Shown in pieces: positions 5,574-8,393 of a DNA stretch of 64,000 nt. Origin of the DNA: Nocardioides marmoribigeumensis (GTDB lineage Bacteria; Actinomycetota; Actinomycetes; Propionibacteriales; Nocardioidaceae); NCBI RefSeq assembly GCF_031458325.1, contig NZ_JAVDYG010000001.1, positions 3,286,001-3,350,000 of the forward strand. Reading direction: 5' to 3'. The translations under genes and the position numbers were made by a program. Below the pieces are notes generated by a model that was not told the DNA's origin, ran no database searches, and saw only the letters and a program-made list of their open reading frames with translations. The first letter of the stretch is position 1; each line of letters opens with the position of its first letter.

Positions 5574-8393
5574 TCAGCGGTGACGGTGGCGGTGGGAGGC
5601 GTGGGTGGCCTTGCCGCCGCCACGGCCGGGCCCCTTGCCGGACTTGTTGGCGGACGTGTTGCCGGACTTGTGGTCCGCCTTGTCGTGCCCCTTGGCAAAG
5701 GCGTGCCCCGGCTTGCCCTTGTCCTTGGCCTTGGCCTTGGCCTTGCCCTGGTCCTTGGCCGCGCTCTTCTCCGTGCTCGTGCTGGTGCTCGTGGTCGGGC
5801 GTGGCGCGACGAGCGGGGAGCGCAGCGGCGAGGTCACCGCGCCGAGCACCGCCGTCGGGTGGGGCAGCGCCGGCAGGCTCGCCCCGACGGAGGGCAGGGT
5901 CGGTGCGGGCACCTTGACCGGGGCGCTGGTCACCGGTGCCGACGGCGTGCGCGTGGGCGCCGTGACCGACGGGGCGGGCCGGGTCGGCGCCGTGGTGGGA
6001 CGCGTGGTGGGACGCGTGGTCGGGCTGCCGACCGTCGGTGCGGACACGGGTGTGCTGGGTCGGGTGCTCGGGGTCGCCGGCGACAGGTTCTTCGGGGCCG
6101 GTCGGGTGGTCGAGGTCGTCGCCGCGCGGACGCCGCGCGCGAGCACCCCGCGCACCCGCTGGAGCACGCCGTCGATGTCGAGGATGCCGTCGCCGTCGAT
6201 GCGCACGGTCGCGGAGTTGTCGGAGGTGTCGGGGTCGGTCTCGCCGAGCAGCGAGGCCGTGACGGTGATCGTCACCTCGTCGTCATCACCGTCGAGGTCC
6301 TCGTCCAGCAGGGTCGGGTCGGCGGAGATCACCACCTCGGCGTGGTTGCCGTCGGTGTCGCAGACCAGGCGGGTGGTGCTGTCGTCGGACCAGGCGCACT
6401 CGCGGGTGGAGGTGCTCAGGTCGATGTCGCGGCTCTTCTCGAAGTCGAGGACCAGGGGCGCCCGTCTGCCGGCCACGGGGACGTCGTCGACGCGCACGAC
6501 GAAGCTGCGCCGGTCGCGACTCTTGTCGATCGACAGCGAGATGTCGCGACCGTCGGCAGGCGGGGTCTCGGTCGGGGTCTCGGACGGCGTCTCGGACGGC
6601 GTCTCGGAGGGCGTCTCGGAGGGCGTCTCGGACGGCGTCTCGGACGGTTCGTCGGTGGGGGACTCGGTGGCGGTCTCGGACGGTTCGTCGGTGGGGGACT
6701 CGGTGGCGGTCTCGGAGGGCTCGTCGGTGGGGGACTCGGTGGCGGTCTCGGAGGGCTCGTCGGTGGGGGACTCGGTGGCGGTCTCGGACGGTTCGTCGGT
6801 CGGCGACTCGGTGGCGGTCTGCGACGGCTCGTCGGTCGGGGTCGACCGGGCGGGCCGGAAGGTGAGCCCGGCGGTGGCCAGGGAGGGGTCGGTGACGCTG
6901 TAGCCCGGCACGCTCACGGTGAGGGTGAGGGAGTCCTCGGTGAGGTCGTCGGGATAGCTCAGCGGGAGCGTCCAGGTCTCGTCGCCGGTGGCCGCGTCGC
7001 GGGCCACGACCTGGCCTGCGGACCGGGCCGAGCCGCTGCCCACGGACCGGGCCGCGGCGGACATCGCGGCGCAGTCGGCGGTGCTCGTCGAGCCGCTGGT
7101 CACGGTGCAGACCCCGTCCTGGACCGCGAACGAGGTGAGCCCGCTGGACGAGCCCAGGGCCAGGGTGGCGCTCCGGGCGTCGGCGGGCATCCCGGTCACG
7201 CCGACGACCAGGGAGTCGCCGGAGATCTCGGCCCGCACCACGCGGATGTCGGCCCCGGCCATCTCGACCGGAGCCGTGGTCGACGAGGACGTCGAGGGGC
7301 TGAGCGAGATGTCGGCCACCACGGAGGCCGGGGGCACCAGGGGCAGCGCCGAGCGCTGCGAGGACGGCCTGCGGCCGGGGACGGTCGGCGCGGACGGAGC
7401 GGTGGAGGTCGGTGTGCTGGTCGGGGTGGGGGTGGGGTCGGCCGCGACCTGCTTCTCCGGACCGCCGCCCACGATGAGCGCCGTGGCGACCGCTGCGGCG
7501 GCGACCCCGGCGGCAGCGGCGGCGGTCGCGGCGCTGGCGACGCCGTTGCCCAGGACGGCGTCCTTGGCGCGGTCGAGCAGCAGGACGATGCCGCTGCCGG
7601 TGGCCCCGGCGCCGCTGGCGAGGTAGCCCGCGCCGAGCGTCCCGAGCAGCAGCGGCGCGATGATCCCGGCCAGGTTGGAGTTCACCTCGGCCAGCTCGAG
7701 GTACATCGCGGTGCAGGAGCGGCACTCCTGGAGGTGCCGGTCGACCTTGCCGGCGTCGCGGCGCGACAGGCCGCTGCGGACGTAGCCGCCGAGATTCTCG
7801 GCCACCCACTGGCAGTCGGCCTCGGCAGAGGCGCTGAGGTGGGCGGTGAGGAAGGCCTGGCGCAGGCCCTCACGGGCGCGGTAGGCCAGCGCCGAGACCG
7901 AGTTGGGGCTCATGCCCAGCAGGGGAGCGATGTCGGCCGGCTTCTGGCCCTCGACCTCCAGGTGCCACAGCACGACCTGCCACCGCTCGGGCAGCGAGGC
8001 GAACGCCTTGGCGGCGGCCCCGCTCTCGAACTGCTCCACGGCGGTGTCCCGGAACGGCACGCCGGGGTCGAAGTCCGTCATGTCGTCGGAGGTGGTCAGG
8101 CGCGACTGACCACGGATGCGGTCGACGTGCAGGCGTCGGATCGCGGTGAGCAGGTAGGCGCGGAAGGCGATGTCCGGCCCGTGTCCGGCCTGCAGCAGGG
8201 CCATCACCTTGGTGAAGGCCTCCGAGACCAGGTCGTCGGCATCGGCGCCGCGCAGCAGCTGCCGGGCCAGGCGGCGGGCAGCGTCGACGTGGCGCGCGTA
8301 GAGGACCCCGTACGCCTCGGTGTCCCCGCCGCGGACGGCGGTGATCAGCTCGGCGTCGCCGGGTGCCTCATGGGGCGACAACAGCTCGGTCAT
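5574..8393 (-). CDS. ECF-type sigma factor fused to zinc-finger, membrane and repeat-rich surface region
   Basis: A single 939-residue frame joins parts that are usually separate. Residues 15-95 resemble sigma region 2 ([10 protein letters not shown] near 51-60), and 130-182 resemble region 4 with its helix-turn-helix ([37 protein letters not shown]). Residues 193-232 carry a zf-HC2-like anti-sigma motif, a Cys followed by HLQECRSC. Two hydrophobic stretches follow (about 241-273 and 280-310), then a Pro/Thr/Ser linker, a beta-rich domain (about 355-515), six copies of a 12-residue [16 protein letters not shown] unit (518-585), six TPSE-like units, a second beta-rich domain with paired Cys (616-733), a long Thr/Pro region, and a Lys/His/Gly-rich tail ending HRHRHR. 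I infer that the sigma part is cytoplasmic and the rest is on the surface. No separate anti-sigma gene is adjacent. The signal and target promoters are unknown. Confidence 0.82.
6565..6840. repeat. coding tandem repeats (12-bp and 36-bp units)
   Basis: Six 12-bp units (6565-6636) are followed by five full and one partial 36-bp unit (start points 6637, 6673, 6709, 6745, 6781, 6817). The units keep frame and encode TPSE and [12 protein letters not shown] in the sigma-fusion protein. Copies differ mainly at third positions. Copy number could vary between strains through slippage. Confidence 0.9.

Follow-up and report, generated by a model that had tools for sequence, protein, structure and literature searches.

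On the minus strand of a 64,000-nt stretch of the Nocardioides marmoribigeumensis genome (contig NZ_JAVDYG010000001.1; the whole stretch is called the window here), one gene encodes a protein in which an extracytoplasmic function (ECF) sigma factor continues into a zinc domain, a membrane helix and a long C-terminal arm. This fusion is conserved among relatives, the arm varies strongly between them, and the gene is accompanied by a partner gene, termed up286, and by a promoter-like motif that recurs at several genes. We consider it rather likely that the protein is an ECF52-like sigma factor that is held at the membrane and restrained by its own zinc domain until a surface signal frees it to drive a small set of morphogenesis genes.

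Architecture and conservation of the fused protein

The frame starts with ATG and runs for 939 residues with 0 internal stops, matching the single frame described in an earlier sequence-only reading of the window, which gave no strand. The GC content at third codon positions (GC3) is 0.94 to 0.99 in all seven consecutive parts of the frame, tail included, so that the whole of it looks coding. Pfam matches to sigma regions 2 and 4 and to the zf-HC2 zinc motif each exceed the curated cut-off (Table 1), in agreement with the ECF-like regions and the Cys...HxxxCxxC motif noted in that reading. The presence of regions 2 and 4, together with a TIGR02937 match above cut-off, marks the protein as an ECF (group 4 sigma-70) factor; a family search gave no match to sigma region 3 in the fused protein. 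Among 26 aligned sequences, conservation is highest in the sigma part, where numerous residues of regions 2 and 4 are invariant, and the zinc ligands C194, H220, C224 and C227 are at least 90% conserved. HxxxCxxC preceded by a Cys or His ligand is the sequence signature of zinc-binding anti-sigma (ZAS) domains. The zinc domain probably serves the protein as its own anti-sigma factor, which would answer the puzzle of the absent separate partner.

An AlphaFold2 model of the N-terminal part is of modest confidence (mean pLDDT, 67.5; pTM, 0.35). Its best Foldseek matches are sigma factors, several of them taken out of sigma/anti-sigma complexes. Two hydrophobic segments had been proposed, together with the concern that neither might be a true membrane helix. 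Hydropathy gives a clear membrane helix at residues 291 to 309, and this part of the proposal stands. The conserved stretch at residues 241 to 259 is borderline, and two membrane segments are not established; the model joins this stretch to the long helix that follows the zinc motif, and it is perhaps a helix of the anti-sigma domain or a re-entrant segment.

A contig scan across all phyla with residues 1 to 314, which reaches close relatives only, recovered 27 loci (L001 to L027), most of them in Nocardioidaceae/Nocardioides; among the named loci, the strongest match is that of N. caldifontis. The profile searches covered the phylum and the family only. Restriction to Actinobacteria is a stated trait of ECF52, the group discussed below, and the searches bear on it within this scope. 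The fusion is kept in all 22 complete intact frames, which encode proteins of 511 to 1,769 residues, and no frameshift parting the sigma region from the rest was found. The remaining loci either run off their contigs (L004, L020, L021 and L022) or have a broken frame (L026). Because the 27 loci overlap with further sets used below (L058 to L086 and L169 to L198), locus counts are not independent. Over the first 265 residues, the window protein is 65 to 81% identical to the ten relatives compared, and the arms of these relatives align to the window arm only locally, at 26 to 38% identity. The switch therefore appears to be fixed and the sensor rebuilt between species.

In a sample of 100 Nocardioidaceae genomes, the ECF match has an E value of <1e-100 in 62 and between 1e-100 and 1e-30 in 11, with nothing stronger in the other 27. 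Of the 96 matches above 200 bits, the open frame has 430 codons or more for 87 and fewer for nine. Frames of 275 to 317 codons (for example, G167:C1:2804274, G196:C1:1239941 and G211:C2:2935986) apparently hold the sigma and zinc parts without an arm. More distant fused sigma proteins (L088, L089 and L090) occur in two genomes that also hold proteins of the type of SCO4117, discussed below; L088 ends in a Lys/His/Gly-rich tract resembling that of the window protein, and L089 and L090 carry a different Cys-containing extension.

From residue 319 onward, the arm of the window protein comprises 621 residues (11.6% Pro, 14.8% Thr and 13.5% Ser). The two beta-rich domains of the sequence-only reading are predicted by AlphaFold2 to be beta-sandwiches, mostly at pLDDT 80 to 95, with a disordered linker between them. 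They resemble residues 417 to 540 (E = 7e-17) and 617 to 734 (E = 3e-9), respectively, of the L001 protein. The tandem repeats could be located in the linker, whose DNA is a tandem array of a 36-bp unit (6.7 copies, 89% match). Ser/Pro/Thr stalks and a Lys/His-rich tail were likewise recovered, the last 70 residues having a net charge of +13 and seven His. A Pfam scan of residues 315 to 939 gave no match at E 0.1, so no carbohydrate-binding module is recognizable. Among the solved folds that Foldseek places nearest to the arm model are Ig-like modules from integrins and from adhesins of bacteria and yeast, with a low overall TM-score; the arm is therefore called Ig-like, with no function implied. 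Among the arms of eight relatives scanned with Pfam, that of L012 carries DUF7507/DUF11 modules and that of L027 PKD modules, both above cut-off.

In 20 of 24 arms, one of which is cut (L004), all Cys residues fall in pairs 9 to 18 residues apart, with one to ten pairs per arm; two arms have no Cys, and two deviate (L018 and L024). Such pairing fits an oxidizing exterior. Together with the Thr/Pro stalks and with an NPCBM domain in the arm of relatives, it suggests that the arm lies outside the cell. The anatomy, the paired Cys residues and the ECF52-type relatives support the earlier idea that a tethered sigma factor is connected to an arm at the cell surface. A second idea, that the basic tail binds anionic wall polymers, does not hold as a general feature, since only the window and L014 proteins have a strongly basic end among 23 complete arms, and the L005 end is acidic. 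Arms of closely related species differ greatly, and the cue is therefore judged equally likely to be mechanical, contact-based or a ligand that changes quickly as to be one conserved wall polymer.

The up286 partner gene and a recurrent promoter-like motif

The gene up286 lies upstream of the ECF gene in 24 of the 27 loci. Within the sample of 100 genomes, it accompanies a strong ECF match in 58 of 62 cases. A strong up286 match was obtained in 60 genomes, every one of which holds at least a piece of the ECF gene; in the two beyond the 58, that gene is weaker, incomplete or broken. When positions were compared in 58 of the 60 genomes holding both genes, up286 was found to adjoin the ECF gene in 57 pairs, 56 of which lie on opposite strands. 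The window's genome is the only one with both genes on one strand; there, up286 and its element (8564 to 9533) point toward the sigma gene, in what looks like a single-gene inversion. The designation GGDEF-like refers to weak GGDEF-type Pfam matches below cut-off in three of six relatives scanned (GGDEF_2 in L001); the same scan gave no match in the other three relatives or in the window.

Comparison of upstream regions revealed the motif GCGTCA[C/T]-N15-CCGT[C/T]TC, directed at the downstream gene, with GCGTCA-N16-CCGTYTC as its clearest form. A loose version is present upstream of up286 in the window and in all 23 loci looked at, four of the 27 having been omitted beforehand (L015, a near copy of L013, and L021, L024 and L027, where up286 was not found). 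The regular expression for this loose version fixes some columns, and their conservation is thus partly by construction; shuffle tests provide independent checks. These shuffles kept single bases for a second up286 set and dinucleotides for the ECF gene, control genes and SsgA-like loci. Of the 27 loci, 15 carry the exact motif on the up286 strand, and in the second, overlapping set the motif precedes up286 in 26 of 30 loci, compared to 0.1% of mononucleotide shuffles. The reading of the motif as a start codon of up286 or as conserved coding sequence was dropped, with no ATG there in several loci and the likely start of up286 in the window about 135 nt away. Just upstream of the up286 motif, the minus strand of the window (9551 to 9565) carries a terminator-like hairpin with a T run, and an A-tract occurs there in several relatives.

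The region upstream of the ECF gene was scored after excision of the up286 site, which is half-palindromic. The mean score of 25 such sequences is 0.09, versus -9.57 (standard deviation, 0.94) for their shuffles, and five control genes average -8.2 to -10.2. Individually, six of the 25 exceed all 200 shuffles and 12 exceed 95% of them, with exact copies of the motif before the ECF gene in L003, L006, L007 and L026.

Only two exact GCGTCA-N16-CCGTYYC sites exist in the 4.44-Mb genome of the window, that of up286 and one located 33 nt before an SsgA-family gene, whose start is assumed (L095, 1501 to 2009; C1:612475 onward in its own genome; PF04686, E = 7e-28). An A-tract is also found upstream of this gene. 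One-mismatch matches in the same genome (38 of 40) were set aside as mostly chance-like, the reversed control giving 29. Among 30 SsgA-like loci, the best of 54 genomes with an SsgA match, the site exceeds all 100 shuffles in 14 (13 of 26 with the sigma gene and 1 of 4 without). Excerpts of PMC5826349 report that ssgB is lowered in a Streptomyces coelicolor knockout of SCO4117, a member of ECF52 (table value, -3.4; about 0.09-fold). The motif at the SsgA-family gene fits this drop from a separate direction, the match being at the level of the gene family.

Across the 100 genomes, the strict motif is found at 88 sites, compared to two for its reversed control. Its density per Mb is 0.31 in the 62 strong-ECF genomes, 0.07 in the 11 intermediate genomes (three sites) and 0.12 in the 27 without the gene, and 21 of the 75 sites in strong-ECF genomes are located at the ECF locus. 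Six of the 88 sites stand just before a DUF5667 gene (L200, L203, L206, L207, L223 and L224), a possible cross-talk with sporulation control, and one stands 34 nt upstream of a WhiB-family gene (L204). Motif-like sites precede rbpA in two genomes, L220 (one of the 88; gene identified by Pfam) and L156 (C1:4124586 in the window's genome; a looser site, with the gene named by resemblance). Single sites before WhiB, AAA/McrB-like and RbpA genes were seen and are not relied on.

Downstream of the ECF gene, aroA is found in 18 of the 27 loci. On the other side, past up286, most loci hold sigR-rsrA and SRAP genes, as far as the contigs reach; in the window, the gene at 12918 to 13700 looks like SRAP/HMCES by a sequence motif, and it stands beside the locus in most relatives. 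None of the common neighborhood was found in L024 and L027.

Table 1. Positions of the fused sigma gene, its parts and neighboring features in the window (KD, Kyte-Doolittle hydropathy)
Feature	Position (nt)	Strand	Evidence or remark
Fused ECF sigma factor, putative anti-sigma zinc domain, membrane helix and surface arm, 939 aa	5574..8393	-	ORF, Pfam, relatives
Sigma region 2, residues 31-98	8100..8303	-	PF04542 Sigma70_r2, E 4e-10
Sigma region 4, residues 128-175	7869..8012	-	PF08281 Sigma70_r4_2, E 4e-6
zf-HC2 zinc motif C194...H220xxxC224xxC227, putative built-in anti-sigma	7713..7814	-	PF13490, residues 194-227, E 2e-6
Conserved hydrophobic stretch, residues 241-259	7617..7673	-	Mean KD 1.78, borderline; inside long model helix 225-260
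Membrane helix, residues 291-309	7467..7523	-	Mean KD 2.06; model helix 288-308
Thr/Ser/Pro-rich stalk, residues 319-375	7269..7439	-	Sequence
Beta-sandwich domain 1, residues 376-518, Cys pair 429/441	6840..7268	-	AlphaFold2
Disordered Glu/Ser/Pro/Thr tandem-repeat linker, residues 519-610	6564..6839	-	AlphaFold2, repeat analysis
Beta-sandwich domain 2, residues 611-738, Cys pair 666/678	6180..6563	-	AlphaFold2
Second Ser/Pro/Thr stalk and Lys/His/Gly-rich tail, residues 739-939	5577..6179	-	Sequence
up286 (GGDEF-like partner gene; ATG at 9370 taken as its start)	8564..9370	-	Conservation, weak Pfam
Promoter-like motif GCGTCACGA-N13-CCGTCCC upstream of up286	9505..9533	-	Upstream comparison
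aroA	4235..5698	-	Pfam; downstream of the ECF gene
rsgA	3219-4274	not listed separately	Downstream neighbor in many relatives
hisN-like	2306-3208	not listed separately	Downstream neighbor in many relatives
sigR-like and rsrA-like genes	14359..15422	+	Ordinary unfused sigma/anti-sigma pair, contrast case

Proposed activation of the sigma factor and competing explanations

In the mechanism that we favor, the adjacent ZAS-type zinc domain would keep the N-terminal sigma regions off RNA polymerase in cis. One helix would span the membrane, and a flexible stalk outside would bear Ig-like beta-sandwiches, pinned by disulfides, with which the protein would contact the wall or envelope. Ligand, tension or wall remodeling at the arm could then act as the trigger, which would either expose the chain to regulated intramembrane proteolysis or shift the zinc domain. 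Once freed, the sigma factor would transcribe up286, the cell-division gene of the SsgA family and, in a fair share of relatives, also its own gene from promoters of the GCGTCA-N16-CCGTYTC form. In the window, the sigma gene may be read from the up286 promoter, as both genes now point the same way.

Several observations weigh against this mechanism. The confidence of the N-terminal model is too low to establish docking of the sigma part on its zinc neighbor. A second membrane crossing by residues 241 to 259 would put the arm on the inner side. The tendency of up286 to accompany the ECF gene is explained in part by joint loss of neighbors. In the window itself, the ECF gene lacks an upstream motif (score, -11.3; 141 of 200 shuffles as good), and 13 of the 25 ECF upstream sequences fail to exceed 95% of shuffles. 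Of the 30 SsgA-like loci, 16, mostly less similar copies, do not exceed every shuffle, and a weak site is present at one such locus (L150) in a genome without the sigma gene. Off the ECF locus, the motif density of 0.22 versus 0.12 per Mb is a difference of about twofold (p 0.03, kinship not corrected), and the fewest sites are found in the 11 intermediate genomes. Finally, the fall of ssgB may be indirect, because ssgB of S. coelicolor has WhiA, WhiH and BldD among its regulators (excerpts of PMC4457907), and the motif is not evident before ssgB-like or SCO4117-type genes in three genomes holding the latter (L029 to L031; best scores, -8.0 to 2.4; no shuffles).

Cleavage is the step at which an alternative parts from this scheme. 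The zinc domain could open on a surface or redox signal, allowing the sigma factor to recruit polymerase in place while still bound to the membrane. In favor of this, the zinc motif is similar to ZAS motifs that are redox-sensitive, the sigma and zinc parts form one conserved unit, and nothing found speaks directly for cleavage, no search having been aimed at a cleavage site or protease. However, ECF48, ECF52 and ECF53 are expected to need proteolysis for activation, which has been shown for the fused ECF factor IutY (excerpts of PMC8999054), and a truncated SCO4117 that lacks the zinc finger, the membrane region and the module continues to modulate development as well as the SCO4117 gene (excerpts of PMC5826349). 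Activation without proteolysis is accordingly considered unlikely. The motif itself could belong to another developmental regulator, such as a homologue of sigma-BldN, that merely also controls the locus. In five of the six DUF5667 loci (all but L224, the five being those tested), the site follows a BldN-like sigma gene, and the sites before WhiB (L204) and rbpA (L220 and L156) could form one developmental network of another factor. Against this, a BldN-like gene is present in each of the seven genomes examined that lack the ECF gene, and in no case does the motif follow it (best score, 2.1). Behind bldN, the motif is also absent from all 13 loci not chosen by motif, the window's genome included (best score, 5.3, versus 15.9 to 23.9 at five motif-chosen loci; two of the 13 are from genomes with an intermediate ECF match, and a fourteenth, L247, was dropped as it gave no BldN match), and the motif tracks the ECF/up286 pair. 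For this absence behind bldN in ECF-lacking and unselected loci, the fused sigma factor is preferred as the probable reader of the motif, and BldN, while a possible candidate, is not favored.

Two further explanations question the function of the sigma part or the frame itself. Large, repetitive and fast-changing arms, with Foldseek neighbors that include integrin and adhesin folds at low overall TM-score, would suit a protein serving chiefly as a structural adhesin of the wall or surface, with a degenerate sigma part as its membrane anchor. This is highly improbable, as the sigma part is the most conserved, retains its many invariant residues and is accompanied by the shared promoter-like motif. 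Spurious long frames do arise in high-GC DNA, and a plus-strand frame of 1,431 residues overlaps the fused gene, such that a short sigma gene might read by chance into an overlapping frame. The GC3 of every part, the fusion in all complete intact frames and the resemblance of the arm domains to those of L001 make the odds of such an artifact negligible, and a frameshift or antisense origin was rejected on the conserved fusion and GC3.

With a membrane-held, surface-released sigma factor as the favored reading, a broader picture can be put forward tentatively. An adhesin-like arm, freely rebuilt among Nocardioidaceae from no Ig-like domain to ten or more, or with PKD/DUF11-type modules, might be wired in one polypeptide to a sigma factor controlling a septation gene of the SsgA family as well as a dedicated partner that is GGDEF-like. 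Contact with a surface, or the state of the wall, could thereby feed directly into a division and morphogenesis decision, with the length of the arm tunable like a ruler. Independently of this picture, the lineage shows that the extracellular part of such a fused sigma factor can be exchanged over an unchanged switch. The lineage offers a compact testable case, with one sigma gene, one close partner gene, a precise promoter prediction at several genes and the SsgA link, and it bears on the question of how ECF52-type fused sigma factors sense.

Relation to ECF52 and other fused sigma factors

SCO4117, which a 2018 paper presents as the first ECF52 member characterized and as having a motif that deviates from the earlier prediction, carries a fused zinc finger, a membrane region, a proline-rich stalk and a carbohydrate-binding module (excerpts of PMC5826349). 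Fused architectures have already been described for ECF48, ECF52 and ECF53 (excerpts of PMC8999054 and PMC5826349). The comparison with membrane-extended ECF groups that the sequence-only reading called for therefore leads to ECF52, and the architecture is less surprising than that reading held. In place of SCO4117, our comparison used three proteins of the same build (L029 to L031) from large genomes of another family in the class, presumably Streptomyces. They match the profile from about position 10 to 300-312 and carry sigma, zf-HC2 and NPCBM domains, the NPCBM at E 3.3e-27 or better and region 4, as well as zf-HC2 in two of them, below the curated cut-off. The window protein is 39 to 40% identical to them over about residues 6 to 257. 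When L030 was searched against the window's genome, the fused sigma gene ranked first (E = 9.5e-56, 43%), a reciprocal best match for the one protein tested.

The likeness to SCO4117 thus extends to a single chain with an ECF sigma factor, a zf-HC2 domain after region 4, a subsequent membrane segment and a long Pro-rich extension. In contrast, the window protein has predicted Ig-like beta-sandwiches in place of NPCBM, and its locus adjoins aroA and includes a GGDEF-like partner and a motif that is not evident in L029 to L031. Since a carbohydrate-binding module is a stated feature of ECF52 and none was recognized in the window extension, we use the name ECF52-like rather than ECF52, an assignment based on the best match to SCO4117-type proteins.

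Control of a sigma factor across the membrane is also known from SigI/RsgI, in which anti-sigma factors with external carbohydrate-binding modules act on sigma factors that are separate proteins. Fused factors are further known from the ECF48 and ECF53 groups, whose C-terminal fusion comprises a probable ZAS domain together with one or two helices in the membrane, and from IutY of Pseudomonas putida (ECF243), a sigma factor fused to a membrane anti-sigma factor and activated by intramembrane proteolysis (excerpts of PMC8999054). IutY, likened here by description only, differs in serving Gram-negative iron cell-surface signaling (excerpts of PMC8999054). The outline of the window protein is therefore of a known kind, and what is new is the type of arm in this Nocardioidaceae lineage, together with a testable prediction of its regulon.

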